From Clostridia bacterium (GTDB taxonomy: Bacteria > Bacillota > Clostridia > Oscillospirales > Acutalibacteraceae): a DNA stretch of 64,000 nucleotides. Location: assembly GCA_017517135.1 (NCBI GenBank), contig JAFXAK010000024.1:1-64000 (forward strand). The letters run 5' to 3'. The notes under the pieces were generated by a model. That model was not told the DNA's origin. It saw only the letters and a list, made by a program, of their open reading frames with translations, and searched no databases. The translations under genes were made by a program, and so were the position numbers. Of this stretch, positions 3,774 to 23,445 are shown in pieces (the first letter of the stretch is position 1; each line of letters begins with the position of its first letter).

Positions 3774-4775
3774 TTAGTTTTCTTCAGCTTTCCCGCTGAA
3801 TGCAGACTTGCTTTCGAATCTTATGATGTATTCTTCAAGAAGTCTCTTGGCAACCTTCGTTGCCTTCCAGCCGATTGAGCTTCTCTGGTTAAGGGGATCG
3901 TTACCGTAGCCCTTCTGCTTAACAATATGCTCAAGCCCGCCGCCTTCAATAGCGGTAACACCGTAAGCATTTGCTCCGAGGAAGAGTGTGGCAAATACAC
4001 CGCCTTCAAAAATCTTAGCTTCTGTGCTTTCAACAAAACGGACACCGCCAAGCATACCGATTTCGCCCTGATATATATTTTCGGGGTTCTTGTACTTATG
4101 AATGTCCATCCACTGGTCGCCTGCATCCTGCATAAGGTCAAAGGCAACATAAGGATGAATAATCGCAATATACGCACCGTCAATTTTGGGAGCATTGACG
4201 GCCTTAAGCTCTGCAGCAGCCGTAAAAACATCCTTCACACGAAGTCTGCAGGTATCGTCAAGCTGACCTCTTTCAGTAACCTCTGTTTCCGTGCCGTCTG
4301 CACTGATTTTAGGTACAAACATAACATTGGTACCCGCAATAAGCTCATTTCTTACAACAGTATCAAGTGTAAGTCCTGCCTGATCAGCAAGCTCCTTTGT
4401 TGCTTCGACTATAGTGTTATCTATAGCGGTAAGTTCCAGAAGATCCGTCTGTTCGACATAGTCACCGTACTGATCTACGGTTGCGGTAACAGCACTTACA
4501 TTAAGTTTTTTGCCCGTAGGTGTTACTCCTTCGGTAATGGGCGTAAGTGCTTTCGGAAGTTTTGAAAACTTTCTGAATTCAATAGTCTTACCGCCGTTTT
4601 TGGGAATAGGCTTCTTCTGTCCGAACTGCTCGTGAACAAGTCTGGGACCTGCAAGAGTTATAAGTGCTTTGTCGTAAAAAGTTTTCATTTCGGCTGAAAG
4701 TTCTGCCGAAGTAGTTGCATTAACCACATCGCCTGCAGCAAACATCTGAATATCAAAAATTAATTTATCTGCCAT
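3774..4775 (-). CDS. Major capsid protein, N4-gp56 family
   Basis: A 333-residue protein that fits the N4-gp56 family of HK97-fold major capsid proteins: an early helix, then TLAGPRLVHEQFGQ, PKNGGKTIEFRK, the VDQYGDYVEQTD segment, and IIHPYVAFDL near residue 210. The N-terminus is MADKLIFDIQMFA|AGD. This resembles the Prp cleavage site of ribosomal protein L27 and of the capsid and scaffold of staphylococcal phage 80alpha, where cutting occurs between Phe and Ala. The same motif starts the scaffold gene next door, and a Prp-like protease gene lies upstream. I infer that the first 12 residues are removed during assembly. Confidence 0.9.
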   Translation of the reverse strand: MADKLIFDIQMFAAGDVVNATTSAELSAEMKTFYDKALITLAGPRLVHEQFGQKKPIPKNGGKTIEFRKFSKLPKALTPITEGVTPTGKKLNVSAVTATVDQYGDYVEQTDLLELTAIDNTIVEATKELADQAGLTLDTVVRNELIAGTNVMFVPKISADGTETEVTERGQLDDTCRLRVKDVFTAAAELKAVNAPKIDGAYIAIIHPYVAFDLMQDAGDQWMDIHKYKNPENIYQGEIGMLGGVRFVESTEAKIFEGGVFATLFLGANAYGVTAIEGGGLEHIVKQKGYGNDPLNQRSSIGWKATKVAKRLLEEYIIRFESKSAFSGKAEEN

Positions 4776-4790
4776 AATATTTCCTTTCCG

Positions 4791-5768
4791 TCAAAAGGTA
4801 ATTTTTGCACCCTTTGCAACTTCTTTTAATATTTCGTGAATGTCATTATCGTTTAAAGAATTGACATCCTTTTTGTTGACTGTAGCTCCTGCAGAATTCA
4901 ATCCGCCCTCTTTAGGTCTTCTTGCATTTCCCTGCATAGAGTCTACGGTCTGTTTAGCGGCTCTTTTAGTAGCCGCAGCAACAAGCCCTGTTGCAATTTC
5001 ATCAAAATAACCGGCACGGTACGCTTGCATCAACGGCACCCCGAGCTCAGCCATCTTCTTGAAATTCTCGTTTTCCGTGAACGCCTTTGTAAGATCAAAC
5101 GAAGGATAAGTTTTTTGTATCTCTGCTTCCTGTGCCTTCCAGTCGCGATACTTTTCTCTTGCCGCCTCAATTCTCAGCTGTTGGTTTCTCTCTGCAGCCT
5201 GCTGTGATCTGTCGCGTTCAGCATTAAACGCATCACGGTATGCTTCACTTTCCATTCCCTTTTCAAGAGCTTTCTTTGCGAATATTCCCGCATCACCCTT
5301 AACGGCATTCTTGAGTCCGTCAATATCGCCCTCTTCGATTCCGTAACGGTCGAACAAGGGAGCGAGAGCATCCATTGCAGTCTTGAGCTTACCCTCAGTT
5401 TCTTTAGCGTTCTTAAAGCGTTCATTAATGATCCCTTGTGTTCTCTTCTGAAAAGCACCTTTGAATTTGCCTTTTATAAGCTCTTCAAATTCCTTTTCGG
5501 GATCTGCAGAATTGTCTTCTGCTACTTCCGAGCTTTCCTCGGTTTCTGCTTCTTCTGACTCCTGTTCTTCGGTACCTGAAGTATCATCATCAGCTTTAGC
5601 GTTTTCTTTTTGAGAGACGGGAGCACTCTCCTTGCCCAGCACATATTTAGTAAAATCGGCTGAAAAATCACCCGTAAGCCCCGACTGTGATGTGTTTTCT
5701 GTGCCACCACCTTCAGCTGTACCCTCAGCGAACATCTGAATGTCGAATGCAAAAATCTTTTCGTTCAT
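4791..5768 (-). CDS. Phage scaffolding protein with N-terminal Prp-like cleavage motif
   Basis: A 325-residue acidic protein located immediately before the capsid gene. After the start comes IFAFDIQMFA|EGT, an L27/Prp-like cleavage motif shared with the capsid protein. Residues about 20-95 are Glu/Ser/Thr-rich and disordered; a long helical, coiled-coil region follows (about 95-265), and the C-terminus carries basic residues and a short acidic tail. This composition and place are typical of scaffolds that co-assemble with capsid protein and are removed later. A strong AAGGAG site precedes the ATG, and the leader contains a tandem repeat (5784-5832). Confidence 0.82.
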   Translation of the reverse strand: MNEKIFAFDIQMFAEGTAEGGGTENTSQSGLTGDFSADFTKYVLGKESAPVSQKENAKADDDTSGTEEQESEEAETEESSEVAEDNSADPEKEFEELIKGKFKGAFQKRTQGIINERFKNAKETEGKLKTAMDALAPLFDRYGIEEGDIDGLKNAVKGDAGIFAKKALEKGMESEAYRDAFNAERDRSQQAAERNQQLRIEAAREKYRDWKAQEAEIQKTYPSFDLTKAFTENENFKKMAELGVPLMQAYRAGYFDEIATGLVAAATKRAAKQTVDSMQGNARRPKEGGLNSAGATVNKKDVNSLNDNDIHEILKEVAKGAKITF

Positions 5769-5783
5769 ACCGAACTCCTTTTA

Positions 5784-5832
5784 TCATCGTCTTTCCGAAG
5801 TGTCTTTTTTTCATCGTCTTTCCGAAGTGTCT
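5784..5832 (-). repeat. Tandem 22-bp repeat in the scaffold/capsid leader
   Basis: Two identical 22-bp copies (5784-5805 and 5811-5832) with a 27-bp period lie between the scaffold ribosome site and the putative promoter. They contain TTCCGAAGTG. They could bind a regulator, or the scaffold protein itself, on the mRNA; nothing in the sequence decides this. Confidence 0.75.
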
Positions 5833-5890
5833 AATGAAATCCTGCTGCACACGGTAGTTTATAACCTTGCATAAGATTCATTTCACCACC

Positions 5891-5919
5891 ATTATACAAA
5901 ACAGACCTGACTTAAACGA
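5891..5919 (-). promoter_or_regulatory. Possible promoter for the scaffold-capsid genes
   Basis: On the minus strand a perfect TATAAT (complement 5891-5896) is preceded at 17 bp by a weak TCGTTT. It lies in the only sizeable gap of the head module, so separate high-level expression of scaffold and capsid is plausible. Confidence 0.4.
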
Positions 5920-5938
5920 GCGAGCCGTAAAACATTTT

Positions 5939-6217
5939 TTATCTCACTGAAAATTCTTTCGGGAATTGCATTGCAAGAAGCTTCATTCCGTTACTAAACA
6001 TATCTGCAAGTGCTTTGTTATACTTCGTTGCAGGAAAAACAATATATCCGTAACCGGATTTAGCAACATATTCGCATCTTTCCTCAACGCTCACCGAAAG
6101 CGATGCAAAAAGTGTTGACGCCCCTGCACAGGGAAGAGATTCGCCTCTCTCCCCCGAATGACCGTAAACAGAGATATGTATCATAGACTTATTTTCTGTC
6201 ACACTAACATTAATCAT
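5939..6217 (-). CDS. Prp-like cysteine protease (phage-encoded)
   Basis: A 92-residue protein with the hallmarks of Prp, the cysteine protease that trims ribosomal protein L27 in Bacillota: an N-terminal strand (INVSVTENK), then GHSGERGESLPCAGAS, with His20 and Cys30 in the catalytic His/Cys places and the CAGAS segment characteristic of the family. Staphylococcal phage 80alpha borrows the host Prp to cut its scaffold and capsid; here the phage seems to carry its own enzyme, just upstream of two proteins with Prp-type motifs. It lacks a few residues between the His and Cys compared with Staphylococcus aureus Prp. The ATG at 6217 is preferred over an upstream TTG. Confidence 0.82.
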   Translation of the reverse strand: MINVSVTENKSMIHISVYGHSGERGESLPCAGASTLFASLSVSVEERCEYVAKSGYGYIVFPATKYNKALADMFSNGMKLLAMQFPKEFSVR

Positions 6218-6245
6218 TTTTCTGCTTTCTCCGAACAACAATTAA

Positions 6246-8249
6246 TCATCGGGCTGCTGTTGTTGCAGCCGCTCTTGCTTTTGCATTCTTAACCACAGAA
6301 TGCTCATCAGCAACTTTTTGCCCCATTGAATCGGTTTTGGCAATTTCTGCTTTCTTTTCTCCCGCTTCCGGGGCATCCCCCTGAGCCGTCGGCATCTGCG
6401 GAAGCTCCATACCAAGAGCTCCGGCTATCATTTCTGCATTATTGGTCCCCTGTGCACGATCAACAGCAGCCACCGCCTGTATCATCGTTGGTAAAAATTG
6501 TGTAAATACCCTGTGCATATGTCCGTTCTTTTGTATGGTTTCAATGACCTTTTCTTTGCCCTCGAACTCAAGCATATTAAGCGCCGCAAGTGACGGAATA
6601 TCATTCTGAGGATTGAAGAAGCCCATGTTATAAAAATTAATTGCGTCCTGGTTCTGAGCAGCCCTTGAATACGGATTACTCTTATATGTTCTGACTTCTA
6701 AATCAAATTCAGAATCCTTGCCCGTAAAGCTCACTCCGAATTCTTCCGTAGCCTTACCCCTTAAAGCCGATGCATCAAAGCTCTTATATTCATAATGTCC
6801 TCTTTCGCCAAGCACTCTGAATGTCCTCGGTATGTCATAAAACTGCCTGATAAGCTCAATGCAAAGTTCACAGATTTCTCTGAAAGCATTGTAAGTCTTG
6901 CTTATCATCGCGCGGGAAGTCTTGTTTCCCGATTCCTGAAGTGCCGCAATAGCTGATGCAGCCGTAACTGAATTACTTGTTGAACCCGTTGTAACATCCT
7001 TATTGGAAGTGATTTCCTTAAGCTCCTGCACTTTGTTCTGATAAACATTGAGCTCCGCCCCCGATAAGGACGATACGGGAATTTCTTTTATAAGCGCATC
7101 ATCAAGCCGTCCTTTAACATGCACGATGTCCTTATCGAAATCAATGAATTCTCCTTCATTTACCTGTGCCGCTTCTGCAATGAAATATCTTCTTCGTGTG
7201 GCTCGTTTCGTCGTCTGCATCACAAGCGAATTCAATTCATCAATATCTTCCTGTGTTTCACGGCCGACATCAATAAGACCGAAACCGAAGGGAGTTCCGG
7301 CATCGGGATTTAACACATCAAAAACAAATGGATATTTTCCGTGATCATACCACCCTCTGTCACTGTATTCGGGATCATTTTCAGACGAATACAAAAGAAT
7401 GTCGTTTACATATCTCACATAATGCAGAACTGTGTTGTTACCGTTTCGTACCTTATAATACCAATTGACCACTGAAGACTTATCCGAAGTATCAACAGTA
7501 TCGTTATAAAGATATCTTGTAACATCAATACTCGGATTGGAAAGATTCTGTAGCTCCTTAATATCAGGATAAGTGGCTTTAAGCTCGTCATTATTGATAA
7601 GCTCTACAAAAAACACATTACTTGACTTCTGAATATCCTTGATTCCAGGTTCCCAGAAGAGATTCAAAGCATCCACAAACTGAACACATATGTCACCAAG
7701 CCCTTTAGCTGCTGCAGGATCCCACATAACAGAATATATCCCTGTTCCGTTTTTGAGTTTATAAAGACAAGTTTCAGAATACACATTTTTGAAATTATTT
7801 CTCGAAAGCACAACAGGCAGAATATCCGTCAGATCCTTAGCCGCCTGCTCGTCGCTCTGCTCTCTCGGCAGTACGGTACATTCGGGGAAATTGTCCATAA
7901 AATCCGCGTGCTTGTTATCAATATCGGCAAATAACCACCCTGTTGCTCTCTTTCCCTTTGCTATCTCGTGTCGCTGCTTCTGCCAATGCTGAAGGCGATA
8001 CCATTCTTCATTGTCAACGATACGACCTTCAAGATTAGCCTTACCTTCTTTATATTTCTGAAGAACAGCTGTTGCATTTGCTATGCTTTCCCGTGTTATC
8101 TTTCCGAGATTCTCGGAAGCGGCTCCAATTTTCAGATTGTTAACCTCATCTGCCACATTGAATTTGCTCAAGTATATGTTTTCAGACACATTTCCACCCG
8201 AAAAACTCTTTGAATTTACCTCATTTTCACGATTATTAAAAACATTCAA
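6246..8249 (-). CDS. Phage portal protein
   Basis: A 667-residue protein between the large terminase and the scaffold, the canonical portal place. Motifs include the N-terminal helical part (VLQKYKEGKANLEGRI), the GWLFADIDNKHADF region, NPDAGTPFGFGLID and a long helix with ELNSLVMQTTKRATRRR, as in large podoviral (P22/N4-type) portals that form the 12-mer packaging channel. The C-terminal 70 residues are Ala/Glu-rich and probably flexible. The start appears to be TTG at 8249, with AAAGGA ten bases upstream; no ATG occurs for more than 100 codons. A leader of about 50 bases separates it from terminase. Confidence 0.85.
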   Translation of the reverse strand: MNVFNNRENEVNSKSFSGGNVSENIYLSKFNVADEVNNLKIGAASENLGKITRESIANATAVLQKYKEGKANLEGRIVDNEEWYRLQHWQKQRHEIAKGKRATGWLFADIDNKHADFMDNFPECTVLPREQSDEQAAKDLTDILPVVLSRNNFKNVYSETCLYKLKNGTGIYSVMWDPAAAKGLGDICVQFVDALNLFWEPGIKDIQKSSNVFFVELINNDELKATYPDIKELQNLSNPSIDVTRYLYNDTVDTSDKSSVVNWYYKVRNGNNTVLHYVRYVNDILLYSSENDPEYSDRGWYDHGKYPFVFDVLNPDAGTPFGFGLIDVGRETQEDIDELNSLVMQTTKRATRRRYFIAEAAQVNEGEFIDFDKDIVHVKGRLDDALIKEIPVSSLSGAELNVYQNKVQELKEITSNKDVTTGSTSNSVTAASAIAALQESGNKTSRAMISKTYNAFREICELCIELIRQFYDIPRTFRVLGERGHYEYKSFDASALRGKATEEFGVSFTGKDSEFDLEVRTYKSNPYSRAAQNQDAINFYNMGFFNPQNDIPSLAALNMLEFEGKEKVIETIQKNGHMHRVFTQFLPTMIQAVAAVDRAQGTNNAEMIAGALGMELPQMPTAQGDAPEAGEKKAEIAKTDSMGQKVADEHSVVKNAKARAAATTAAR

Positions 8250-8302: not shown

Positions 8303-9694
8303 TCAGACCGCCGCATAATGATACAAATTCAGAGGATCCTTATCATAAAGCCGTTTGCTTTCTTTCTGCTTCGGCGGTGCTATAGGCCTGCTCATACAGA
8401 AGTATCTGAATGAGTCTGCGAAATGGTCTTCCTGTTCCGTATTAAGGTCCTCGGGAATTCTCTCCGAAAACTGTAAAAGCGGAAGTGTTCTTATAGCGGC
8501 CGTACAGGTGTTGAAGAAATATACCATCGGATAACCATTTTCATCAAAAGCGAGCCTGTAGTGGCATTGCATCCACCCGGGAAGCCGTTTGTTATCACCC
8601 TTGTCAAAATATACAAAGTTTCTGTCTGCCGCCTCAATTATAGCCTCACCTCTTGAGGCATCCCATATTGACGGATCGGCAACACCAAATATCTGCTTAC
8701 CTTTCAACCACTTATGTTCCGTTTCAATTCTGTGAATCTCCGAAAATATCCTGTCGGGATGCCACTTAACACCTTCATTCGGGATATCAGTACAACCGTA
8801 CAACTGCAGTATAAGGTATGCTCTGCCGTCATAATCCACAGCCCACCAGTCACAGGAAAAAGGCTTTCCGTAACCAAAGTCAAAGCTTCGGTAAATAGTC
8901 CATTCTCTCGGTATGTCAAAGGGCTCTATAACATGTGTAAACTGCCTTGTAATATATCCGTCGGGAATATCTCTGAATTCTTCAAAAAACTGTCCTTCAA
9001 ATATATTCCAGTCCCCCTCAAGCCAGGCTTTACGAAGCTTCGGCGGTAAGGCTTCGAGCTGTCTTATGTAGTCGGGATTCGTTTTCATAAGCGCCTTATT
9101 ATCTGTCACAAGACTTCGTATAAAGGAATATTCCTCAGGAATTTCACCAATAGTATATTTCTTATCCACAAAAAGCCTTTTAACAAAGCCGTGCCCCACT
9201 CCGCCCGGATTGCAGGTAAGATATATCCTTTTCGGAAAATTATTCACACCTCTGACACAGGCTTTAATTCTGTTAAACTGCTCTTCAGTAAACTGTGTCG
9301 CTTCATCAACAAACAGAACATCGACTTCCGTGCCCTGATACTTATCCATATCCTTTTCATTCTGTGCATATCTGAAAAGAATAACAGAACCGTTGGGAAA
9401 AGTTATCTCCTTTGTGCTGTCCTTATATACGGCAAGTCCCGAAAGCAATTCTTTCATTTGATTTATGTGATTTGAACGAAGCTCGGGATATGTCCGCCTT
9501 ACTATCATTATCTTGATTCCGGGATAACGGTACGAAAGAAGCACCGCCTTCACCCTCACTGCCCAGCTCTTTCCACCACCTCTCGCACCCCCGAATGCCA
9601 CATATTTGTGCTTATCCATCAAAAATAAAGCCTGCCTCGGGTTCGGCTCGCCTAAATACAAAGTCTTAACAGGCAAATCCGCATTATTCTGCAT
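8303..9694 (-). CDS. terL: Terminase large subunit
   Basis: A 463-residue packaging motor from the ATG at 9694. The N-terminal ATPase has Walker A GGARGGGKS, a coupling region around TYPELRSNHINQ, and Walker B DVLFVDEATQ. The motif LTCNPGG follows. The C-terminal nuclease carries acidic residues in YRSFDFGYG and FGVADPSIWD, and a final DHFADSFRYF. It forms the ATP-driven motor with the small subunit and portal and cuts concatemeric DNA. A longer frame begins at a TTG (9712), but the ATG with AAGGAG nine bases upstream is more likely. The gene overlaps the terS stop by 11 bases. Confidence 0.95.
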   Translation of the reverse strand: MQNNADLPVKTLYLGEPNPRQALFLMDKHKYVAFGGARGGGKSWAVRVKAVLLSYRYPGIKIMIVRRTYPELRSNHINQMKELLSGLAVYKDSTKEITFPNGSVILFRYAQNEKDMDKYQGTEVDVLFVDEATQFTEEQFNRIKACVRGVNNFPKRIYLTCNPGGVGHGFVKRLFVDKKYTIGEIPEEYSFIRSLVTDNKALMKTNPDYIRQLEALPPKLRKAWLEGDWNIFEGQFFEEFRDIPDGYITRQFTHVIEPFDIPREWTIYRSFDFGYGKPFSCDWWAVDYDGRAYLILQLYGCTDIPNEGVKWHPDRIFSEIHRIETEHKWLKGKQIFGVADPSIWDASRGEAIIEAADRNFVYFDKGDNKRLPGWMQCHYRLAFDENGYPMVYFFNTCTAAIRTLPLLQFSERIPEDLNTEQEDHFADSFRYFCMSRPIAPPKQKESKRLYDKDPLNLYHYAAV

Positions 9695-10178
9695 ACTCCT
9701 CTGCTCCTTCAATTATAACCTTCACCGCATCATGCCCCTTATCCATATCCTTTTCGATGGAATGTAAAAGTGCCTTGATTCTTGCTTCCTGCTCTTGTTT
9801 GTCCTCATCACTCTTAATGCCTTTGAGCTTCTGAATATCTCCTAATGCAGATGTAAGTGCCTTTAGCTCCTTTGCCGTAACTACCTTTTCCGCCATTGAG
9901 GATATTCTTTTAAGCAACTTGTCGCATACCTTGTTTACCTTGACTGCATCCTTTGCTTTTTGCTTCGCTTTTTTCTTTGCAATTTCTTCAACAGTTTTCC
10001 GCTCTAAATCTTCCCGGTACTTTGCCCGCTGTTTTACCCACTCTTCATCAGCGGCTCTTTCGCATAAGGTATTGCGTCGAATCTGATGCTTTTTTGCAAG
10101 CTCTTCATATCCGATTTCAGTTGTCACATATTCTTCTTTAATAATAAACCAATCAATTTTCTTTGCTATTGTTCTCAC
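9684..10178 (-). CDS. terS: Terminase small subunit
   Basis: A 164-residue basic protein with GTG start at 10178, directly upstream of and overlapping terL. Residues about 10-55 form a helix-turn-helix-like segment (YVTTEIGYEELAKKHQIRR followed by NTLCERAADEEWVKQR), a common recognition domain for phage DNA packaging sites; the rest is a highly charged coiled coil likely used for oligomerisation. Family detail cannot be fixed from sequence alone, but domain order and position make the small-terminase call strong. A minus-strand terminator just upstream (10247-10268) separates this late module from the early genes. Confidence 0.82.
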   Translation of the reverse strand: MRTIAKKIDWFIIKEEYVTTEIGYEELAKKHQIRRNTLCERAADEEWVKQRAKYREDLERKTVEEIAKKKAKQKAKDAVKVNKVCDKLLKRISSMAEKVVTAKELKALTSALGDIQKLKGIKSDEDKQEQEARIKALLHSIEKDMDKGHDAVKVIIEGAEEYAE

Positions 10179-19956: not shown

Positions 19957-19982
19957 TTTTTTTGTATATTTTCAAAAAAATG

Positions 19983-20011
19983 TTGCATTTTATGCAAATT
20001 AGTGTTATAGT
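19983..20011 (+). promoter_or_regulatory. Repressor maintenance promoter with overlapping operator
   Basis: Plus-strand TTGCAT (19983-19988), 17-bp spacer, TATAGT (20006-20011). The palindrome TTGCATTTTATGCAA (19983-19997) covers the -35 box, giving autorepression. The start codon lies only about ten bases after the predicted start of transcription, without a clear ribosome site. Confidence 0.7.
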
Positions 20012-20027
20012 ACTTTTGGTGATTACT

Positions 20028-20702
20028 ATGAATAAAAGAAATATACTTGCAGGCGAAAGACTGAAACAATGCAGAAAAAACGCAGAAAAAACACTGGAAC
20101 AAATAGGGATGTTGTGCGGTGTTCATAAAACTACCGTTATGAGGTGGGAAAAAGGAGAGATTGAAAAAATCGGGTTGCCAACAATTCAACTCCTTGCTTC
20201 TTTTTTTAATGTTTCTCCTGCATGGCTATCAGGCTTTGATGCCCCAATGCACGATAAAACCGACAAAATAAAAAATCCCACTGTTACAACCGACACGGTA
20301 AAGCTCCCTGTCATCGGCAATATAGCAGCAGGATATGAAGAGATAGCCATTGAAGACTGGAGCGGAGAAACCGTAGAGGTTCCGAACTCCTATCTTAAAG
20401 GCAGAAAAATAAACGATTTTATCGTACTTAAGGTTCACGGAGATAGTATGTACCCCGAATATCACGACGGCGACAAGGTTGTTATTCTGAAACAAAATAA
20501 TCTTGACCGTTCAGGCTCTGTCTGCGCTGTTCTTTATAATGATGAAATGGCAACTCTGAAAAGAGTAGATGTAATTGATGATAAAATTAAACTCACTCCT
20601 CTGAATCATAACTATGCCCCAAAAACAATCTCCGGAGAAGAAAAAGAACACTTCAGAATTATAGGTATCCCCAAAATGTTAATACGAGAAATAGAAGATT
20701 GA
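20028..20702 (+). CDS. CI-like repressor, XRE HTH plus S24 peptidase domain
   Basis: A 224-residue lysogeny repressor; ATG 20028 is chosen because the frame upstream covers the promoter and operators. Residues about 8-65 are an XRE helix-turn-helix (LEQIGMLCGVHKTTVMRWE). The C-terminal LexA/S24 domain has an Ala-Gly cleavage site in NIAAGYEE, the catalytic Ser in HGDSMYPEYHDGD and the Lys in MATLKRVD. It should be cleaved after RecA activation, inducing the prophage. Divergent from the Cro-like gene with shared operators. Confidence 0.93.
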   Translation: MNKRNILAGERLKQCRKNAEKTLEQIGMLCGVHKTTVMRWEKGEIEKIGLPTIQLLASFFNVSPAWLSGFDAPMHDKTDKIKNPTVTTDTVKLPVIGNIAAGYEEIAIEDWSGETVEVPNSYLKGRKINDFIVLKVHGDSMYPEYHDGDKVVILKQNNLDRSGSVCAVLYNDEMATLKRVDVIDDKIKLTPLNHNYAPKTISGEEKEHFRIIGIPKMLIREIED

Positions 20703-22221: not shown

Positions 22222-22261
22222 AAATAAAAAAAATGCTCACCGGCTACCACCCCGATGAGCA
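22222..22261 (-). terminator. Minus-strand rho-independent terminator
   Basis: TGCTCA/TGAGCA and CGG/CCG pair (22234-22261), followed on the minus strand by a T-rich run. It would stop leftward transcription coming from the integrase or tRNA side before it reaches the lysogeny genes. Confidence 0.6.
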
Positions 22262-22274
22262 AAGGAGACCTACC
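22261..22274 (+). repeat. Shared ribosome-site module, copy 4 (plus strand)
   Basis: AAAGGAGACCTACC, identical to the minus-strand copies, here in the integrase leader and without an adjacent start codon. Confidence 0.75.
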
Positions 22275-22306
22275 GACGAATAACAATTCCAACCACAGAA
22301 AAGACC

Positions 22307-22371
22307 GCCGAAAGGACATGTTTATTATACTACATCCTTTCGGCAATGTCAAACATTTTACCGAAAGGATG
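22307..22371 (+). promoter_or_regulatory. Mutually exclusive hairpins over the integrase ribosome site
   Basis: Three arms share CCGAAAGGA: arm 1 at 22308-22320, the inverted arm 2 CATCCTTTCGG at 22333-22343, and arm 3 CCGAAAGGATG at 22361-22371, which is the integrase ribosome site. Arms 1-2 or arms 2-3 can pair but not both; 2-3 (11 bp) hides the ribosome site. Confidence 0.5.
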
Positions 22372-22377
22372 TTTTTT

Positions 22378-23445
22378 ATGCCAAAAGCAAAATATTCTAA
22401 AGACTCAACAGGTTACTATTACACAAATGTCAAAACCAACAAATTAAGAGCTGACGGCTATCCCGAATACAAACGAGTAAGAGCAAAAACAATAAAGGCT
22501 CTTGATGAAAAACTGCAGAAACTTGAAGAAACGAAGCTATTACACGAAGATGCATCTAAGATAACCGTTGATCAATGGTACAAAATATGGTTTACTTCCT
22601 ATAAATCAGACCTTGCGCCGTCCACCCAGGACTATTATAAGAATCTTTACACTAAGCATATATCACCTAATATAGGCACATTTAAGCTCATTTCTGTCAA
22701 CGAAACACAATGTCAGTCTATTCTTACGGGTATGAGCAAGAATGATTATTCTATCCGTACTGTCAAAGGTGTACGCAAGGTTCTTTTCAGTCTTTTTGAT
22801 AAAGCACAGAAAAACAGGTATATCCCGGTAAATCCATGCACAGATTTAACAGCAAACGGGGCAAAACAAAAAGACAGACGGGCATTGACAGAAGAAGAAA
22901 GAAATGCATATCTTAAAGCTTGCCGAGAACACGAGTTCGGCACCTTTGCCGCTTTTCTCTATTTCTTCGGGTTGCGCCGTGGTGAAGCACTCGCCCTCAC
23001 AGGCACAGACATTCTTTCAGACAAAATAAGAGTTTCAAAGCAACTCACTTTCCCCGATAATAATCAACCGCACTTAGCGGCTCCAAAGACCGCCGCAGGT
23101 GTCCGAGAAATCCCGATTCCGACCAAGGCAAGATTCTATATAAATTTCAATAATATAGGTAGCGGCTATCTGTTCACGGGAACAGACAGCAAACCTCTGA
23201 CATACTCAGAAGCCCGCCGTCGATGGAATTCCTTTCTCAAATGTGCTTTTCCGGAAGGAACAGACATAACAGAACACTATCTTCGGCATAATTACTGCTC
23301 AATGCTTTTTGAAAATGAAGTTGATTTGCTCACGGTTAGAACTCTCGCAGGACATGAGGATATTTCCACCACACTTGAAATTTACACACACTACACAGAA
23401 AAAATGCAAACAACAGCATCAAAAAAGATACTTTCAATCGGATAA
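22378..23445 (+). CDS. int: Tyrosine recombinase integrase
   Basis: A 355-residue phage integrase. ATG 22378 is chosen because AAAGGATG lies just upstream; the frame extends to 22255 without a ribosome site. An N-terminal arm-binding region (YYYTNVKTNKL), a SAM-like core-binding domain (about 60-160: VDQWYKIWFTSYKSDL), and a catalytic domain with Arg in FGLRRGEAL, the His-x-x-Arg box in TEHYLRHNY, His in LAGHEDIST and the nucleophile Tyr in LEIYTHYTE are all present. It points to tRNA-Pro 160 bp downstream, the probable attachment site, and should catalyse insertion and excision. Confidence 0.95.
   Translation: MPKAKYSKDSTGYYYTNVKTNKLRADGYPEYKRVRAKTIKALDEKLQKLEETKLLHEDASKITVDQWYKIWFTSYKSDLAPSTQDYYKNLYTKHISPNIGTFKLISVNETQCQSILTGMSKNDYSIRTVKGVRKVLFSLFDKAQKNRYIPVNPCTDLTANGAKQKDRRALTEEERNAYLKACREHEFGTFAAFLYFFGLRRGEALALTGTDILSDKIRVSKQLTFPDNNQPHLAAPKTAAGVREIPIPTKARFYINFNNIGSGYLFTGTDSKPLTYSEARRRWNSFLKCAFPEGTDITEHYLRHNYCSMLFENEVDLLTVRTLAGHEDISTTLEIYTHYTEKMQTTASKKILSIG

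Follow-up and report, generated by a model that had tools for sequence, protein, structure and literature searches.

The window, by which we mean the whole analysed stretch of 64,000 nt from a Clostridia bacterium, carries a prophage in a gut bacterium, and in this prophage the gene for a small cysteine protease adjoins both of the head-protein genes that bear a likely cut site (Table 1). The order on the minus strand is portal, Prp, scaffold and major capsid. The capsid protein belongs to the N4-gp56 family, scoring well above the TIGR04387 cut-off. The scaffold-like protein has no Pfam or NCBIfam match and its PHROG family carries no named function; the label "scaffold" rests on gene position and on relatives. 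Because an integrase and an S24-type repressor are present, the element falls outside the FpGTA-like gene transfer agents discussed below, a class defined here by a head module lacking both. Between Prp and scaffold lie two exact copies of a 19-nt element, ACACTTCGGAAAGACGATG, both directly upstream of the scaffold gene. In 29 of 126 loci this element (up to 3 mismatches) lies no more than 160 nt ahead of the scaffold start. The 157 loci together contain 30 copies, and shuffled copies of them none; an Rfam search of window positions 5600-6000 returned no match at an E-value of 1.

Table 1. Features of the window, and positions cited from other loci
Feature	Position	Strand	Evidence or remark
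Major capsid protein	3774..4775	minus	N4-gp56 TIGR04387, 257.4 bits (cut-off 60); phrog_1357
Capsid site FDIQMFA, residues 7-13	4737..4757	minus	Predicted cut between F12 and A13; 13.3 nats
Scaffold-like protein, 325 aa	4791..5768	minus	phrog_13908, 184 bits; lies between Prp and capsid
Scaffold site FDIQMFA, residues 8-14	5727..5747	minus	Predicted cut between F13 and A14; 13.0 nats
19-nt element, two exact copies	5785-5803 and 5812-5830	minus	Between Prp and scaffold
Prp-family cysteine protease, 92 aa	5939..6217	minus	ATG at 6217
Longest Prp frame, 100 aa		minus	TTG start at 6241
Predicted Prp dyad	His20 6158-6160; Cys30 6128-6130	minus
Portal protein	6246..8249	minus	PF16510, 91.7 bits
Terminase large subunit	8303..9712	minus	PF04466, 60.2 bits
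S24-type prophage repressor	19980..20699	plus	PF00717, 75.9 bits
Phage integrase	22255..23442	plus	PF00589, 57.7 bits
Terminase-portal-Prp part of module, genome G000	L008 10063-13580		Contig C20
Scaffold-capsid part of module, genome G000	L301		Contig C32
Tail proteins beginning with a Prp-type site	L327 9683-10234; L337 9917-10279; L338 9160-9481

The 92-aa product, in which a preliminary description had recognized the Prp pattern, matches PF04327 (Peptidase_Prp, MEROPS C108) at 32.6 bits, above the curated cut-off of 27, and phrog_4478 ("peptidase") at 36.8 bits. The comparison with S. aureus Prp proposed in that description yields a Prp fold at 20% sequence identity. Direct comparison of the protein with PDB sequences by phmmer gives a weak match (E 0.51), and a profile of 48 Prp rows finds five distinct PDB sequences, all Prp or Prp-like. 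His20 and Cys30 are invariant among these 48 aligned Prps; in a second set of 53, the Cys column is occupied in 53 and the His column in 52, one protein having a different residue there. No match at 0.01 was obtained when the window Prp was searched against phage records by tblastn, and other Prps used as queries retrieved 6, 6 and 25 phage records.

Several features separate this protein from the cellular enzyme that processes ribosomal protein L27. Its best score against the NCBIfam equivalog models of that enzyme is 18.5 bits, against a cut-off of 136, and its gene lies between portal and scaffold rather than in the rplU-rpmA position, which is occupied by the host's own copy (L001). The genome holds three further Prps in all, one adjoining L27 and two adjoining portal-like genes. 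In a tree, 50 host and 57 phage Prp rows are split by one branch (SH-aLRT 99), and the window Prp does not group with the host sequences; the tree was computed by a quick method from 107 columns, leaves 46 of 100 inner branches open, and gives the window Prp its second longest end branch. The tree does not support the idea that the gene was captured recently from the host. S. aureus Prp, the MEROPS C108 enzyme whose substrates are L27 and the scaffold and capsid of phage 80alpha, is a host enzyme; the window Prp, by contrast, is encoded in a head module, falls below the equivalog cut-offs and lies on the phage side of the tree.

The two head proteins begin MNEKIFAFDIQMFAEG and MADKLIFDIQMFAAGD. 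That they share a nearly identical motif, as had been noticed earlier, is borne out by a site matrix: the capsid site IFDIQMFAA has the highest score among the 66 crudely called proteins of the window and the scaffold site AFDIQMFAE the next, the third protein reaching only 6.8 nats. L27 and window sites seeded the matrix, which was then derived from other loci, with neither the window nor the C25 prophage contributing to its final counts. Published Prp sites are cleaved between F and A (PMC9405229 and PMC5744158, both cited from excerpts), so that the predicted products begin AEGT (scaffold) and AAGD (capsid); the preliminary description had placed the cut after the alanine, one residue too far, and its expected starts EGT and AGD fall with it. 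The F-A bond is predicted here by homology with L27 and 80alpha. Host L27 begins MLKINIQLFAHKKG; the phage matrix gives 10.2 nats to the site in it, KINIQLFAH.

Relatives were gathered by likeness to the window capsid, as the best 80 of 133 viral loci from a capsid search and the best 80 of 408 loci in genome records, mostly metagenome-assembled genomes (MAGs) of Clostridia, from an alignment search; three of the 160 lacked a capsid core and were dropped from site analysis. With the window and the C25 prophage added to the remaining 157 loci, 262 of the 287 starts of scaffold and capsid proteins contain a site scoring more than 5 nats and 25 do not, compared with a mean of 1.05 (maximum 2) in 20 rounds of shuffled starts, the matrix having been fitted to the real set. 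Where both a site and a called start are available, the median propeptide is 12 residues in 145 capsids and 13 in 111 scaffolds. Eight of the 145 capsid propeptides (L020, L021, L022, L066, L069, L132; L107, L110) are strongly hydrophobic ahead of the site, some resembling lipoprotein signals, which raises the question of whether they are removable membrane anchors on the capsid protein.

Prp is present at 110 of these 160 best-matching loci. Together with the tree, this supports the earlier proposal that the phage encodes the Prp acting on its own scaffold and capsid proteins, in a head of N4-gp56 type. In 18 of the 50 loci without Prp (13 viral, 5 genomic), the sequence ahead of the capsid gene extends for 2.2 kb or more. 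Absence of Prp from the 13 viral loci was entertained and dropped: a search of whole records for ten of them, leaving out L081, L085 and L086, found exactly one Prp elsewhere in seven, the other three being fragments of 11.7-15.7 kb. The Pfam model recovered five of six controls with a known Prp; that of L074 was missed by it and found by the model built in this analysis.

The exceptions are of several kinds. L053 and L071 have Prp and no site above 5 nats in scaffold or capsid, the two head proteins of L071 sharing a separate motif of their own, and in L090, L122 and L081 the portal is followed directly by the scaffold without Prp. Among the 8 of 79 capsid-related phage records that were read, all five complete relatives without Prp (Pony, API480, Y3, Dennebes and StenR_269) show, by eye, a site in neither scaffold nor capsid. 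Three gut contigs are more varied: MT836159 has a Prp-scaffold fusion and a capsid site, MT835662 has Prp, but its capsid site is weak and its scaffold shows no clear one, and MT835607, a 25-kb fragment, has a capsid site without Prp. Head genes seem dispersed in a further group of loci (L103, L105, L106; L242, L243): there are scaffold-capsid pairs with neither portal nor Prp close by, and, in two of the genomes concerned (G068, G070), portal-Prp pairs whose stretch as read contains neither of the other two genes.

Six of six other phages with Prp have, by eye, the site in both scaffold and capsid: Dorea DO134P1 (both proteins annotated hypothetical and assigned by place), Lactococcus PLgT-1, Enterococcus phiFL3A, Brochothrix BL3, Oenococcus phiS13 (with two genes named major head protein, the site being in the longer) and Latilactobacillus TMW 1.1365 P3. 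All six are long-tailed phages, in part on the evidence of an annotated major tail gene. In phiFL3A, PLgT-1, BL3, phiS13 and others the Prp homologue lies beside the portal gene, as in the window, and is annotated "peptidase" or "ribosomal protein"; these phages differ from the window element in capsid type, to judge by the absence of their genera among the organisms named in the window-capsid search tally, and in having a minor head gene between Prp and scaffold. An annotated tail protein also begins with a Prp-type site in all three of the Prp-bearing phages in which such a protein was read (Table 1), and a similar case, phi13, is described in the excerpted text of PMC5744158.

The 80alpha precedent, as excerpted from PMC5744158, raises the alternative that host Prp cuts the head proteins here too, the phage copy being redundant or otherwise employed. 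The score of host L27 on the phage matrix agrees with this, and so does L090, in which the sites are present and the only Prp of the genome is the L27-linked copy, so that host Prp may serve there. Against it stand the hosts themselves. Of 30 host genomes, 26 yielded an L27, which has the extension and an adjacent Prp in 20 and is short (starting MAHKKG) without an adjacent Prp in four, the rest being one ambiguous frame (L199) and one partial locus (L224). The four short-L27 hosts, three Faecalibacterium and one other Oscillospiraceae record, have phages that keep Prp and a DLQLFA-like capsid site, so the earlier suggestion that the phage could mature without host Prp is well supported, as far as sequence goes. 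L27 is short in all three Faecalibacterium genomes in which it was read. In the genus that contains the F. prausnitzii record G086, 30 of 31 genomes have a Prp, 28 of them exactly one, and 31 of the 32 matches were read; all 31 lie in phage-type head modules, with portal upstream and capsid downstream. As to any action on host L27, the lesson of Faecalibacterium goes no further than that trimming of L27 is not the reason the Prp gene is retained in it.

These Faecalibacterium loci comprise 25 fused Prp-scaffold frames, five unfused and one shortened (L271), and the fusions too argue against the host enzyme. The junction reads (V/I/M)(D/E)LQ(L/M)F in 25 of 25 and is preceded by an invariant Met; a site at this position suggests that the fused protease could free itself. 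The PHROG peptidase and scaffold families lie within one frame in both fusions tried (L241 and L158), L158 belonging to a record not titled Faecalibacterium and having a weaker junction, SIFLQCFSTE. Upstream of the junction ATG, 15 of 25 frames have a Shine-Dalgarno match of 4 or more (background 22%), and 7 of 25 have one of 5 or more (background 6.8%). The junction Met may also be an internal start, so that both products could be made. Phage lambda provides an example of an internal start within a protease-scaffold frame, in C and Nu3.

The sites also vary with one another and with the phage Prp. From 105 loci with both sites, removal of pairs with a site below 5 nats and of near copies above 93% left 68, which with the window give 69 phages. 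Within a phage, the scaffold site matches the capsid site at 3.80 of 6 variable positions, compared with 2.56 for random pairs. Among the 69 phages, the own pair agrees at 0.54 positions more than does a pairing with the scaffold of the nearest relative (p 0.0018; capsid identity to that relative averages 0.83). In a permutation test by position, -5 to -1 each pass, and +1 (P1') does not covary. With capsid distance held fixed, Prp distance correlates with site distance at a partial r of 0.35 in 52 phages, as high a value being reached in 0 of 2000 permutations. The influence of shared descent is reduced, though not removed, by these tests. Given the short-L27 hosts, the fusions and this covariation with the phage Prp, we consider cleavage by host Prp improbable.

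A comparable set of genes has been reported from Faecalibacterium as a gene transfer agent, FpGTA I, whose TerS, TerL, portal, scaffold and capsid genes occur in 12 of 12 genomes and whose 40-nm particles carry 8.4-8.9 kb of DNA (Borodovich et al. 2026, PMC12946183, in excerpt). Its gene order and near-universal presence fit the Prp-scaffold modules described above, and the gene reported as its scaffold is probably the fused Prp-scaffold frame found here. The numbers of its capsid (RCH50849.1) and portal (RCH50851.1) leave one between them, which would fit a single Prp-scaffold gene. The words "protease" and "Prp" do not occur in the main text of PMC12946183. FpGTA I differs from the window element, a prophage with integrase and repressor in which Prp is unfused.

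In the genus of the window, a capsid gene of the window family occurs in 20 of 22 other genomes (same-genus loci L302-L312), singly in 18, one of these being a 40-aa fragment. Capsid identity tracks the identity of host L21 plus Prp (Mantel r 0.70, 0 of 2000; 14 of the 22 same-genus genomes, with one of two G014 copies), so that the capsid module of this genus looks vertically inherited, in the manner of FpGTA; host-specific prophages are an alternative compatible with the same pattern. The module of G000 seems to be split between two contigs (Table 1). A gene next to the C32 part is found again alongside the modules of G006 and G018, and its G006 version resembles flavin reductases.

Phage-borne head proteases of the Prp clan are not new in kind. 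In the Streptococcus phage Cp-1 record, orf13, which we take to be the Cp-1 protease, matches the phage-Prp model of this analysis at 23.9 bits. MEROPS groups that protease with Prp, and its substrate is the major head protein, which it trims (PMC12445089, in excerpt); like the window Prp, for which such cleavage is predicted, it is phage encoded. It differs in PHROG family (23584), in the taxonomy line of its phage (Salasmaviridae) and in its cut, which removes 48 residues and by our count would fall between RINH and ATVP, not at an L27-like tag. Apart from this mention and a Shewanella note (PMC10846135), the open-licence literature, as excerpted, yielded no phage-encoded Prp described as a head protease. 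An L27-like tag on scaffold and capsid beside a phage Prp, a Prp-scaffold fusion and the split of phage Prp from the L27 enzyme were likewise not found there.

Taken with the relatives, the window Prp appears to be a head-maturation enzyme and not a ribosome-processing one, and very probably it is the prophage's own. Produced together with the portal, scaffold and capsid proteins, it would recognize a short N-terminal tag, approximately (L/F)(N/D)(L/I)Q(L/M)FA, on scaffold and capsid and cut after the Phe by means of its His20/Cys30 dyad, so that 13 and 12 residues, respectively, would be removed during head assembly. It belongs to a phage branch of Prps, apart from the host's L27-trimming enzyme; in Faecalibacterium, whose L27 needs no trimming, protease and scaffold usually form one fused frame that has the site where the two parts meet. 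Family, fold, dyad, gene context, sites, covariation, fusion and, in the records read, co-occurrence are established by computation, and from them cleavage by the window Prp, its timing and any requirement for it are inferred; the evidence throughout is of sequence and model, and most of the genomes are MAGs.

The shared motif might instead be mainly an assembly or folding signal, with cleavage incidental. According to the excerpts of PMC5744158, 80alpha is viable with uncleavable capsid or scaffold and needs an intact scaffold N-terminus, not its cleavage. Such a signal would leave unexplained the adjacent protease with its invariant dyad, the covariation and the site at fusion junctions, and as the main role we regard it as very unlikely; it may well act in addition to cleavage. 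That phage Prp acts mainly on host L27, altering ribosomes during infection, would suit the likeness of phage and L27 sites and a fold that is that of the L27 enzyme. We think it extremely improbable: the phage Prp gene is retained even where the host L27 lacks the extension, it is part of the head module, and its product covaries with the sites on the head proteins. L27 might still be affected incidentally by an enzyme whose principal function is head maturation.

On balance, and with modest confidence, we favor a joint reading in which Prp-fold proteases are a widespread and largely unrecognized class of head-maturation enzymes of tailed phages, with N4-gp56, siphophage and phi29-like Cp-1 heads, in which FpGTA bears a self-freeing protease-scaffold fusion with an L27-like junction, and in which a related module is vertically inherited in the genus of the window. 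The FpGTA authors allow that further structural or maturation genes may be found (PMC12946183, in excerpt). Prp is discussed as an antibiotic target (PMC9405229, in excerpt), and it therefore matters that phage be separated from cellular Prp. If the joint reading is true, the L27-trimming enzyme would be the cellular branch of a family common to phage heads. The findings also point to a likely maturation protease for a large number of gut phages, among which FpGTA is included by inference.
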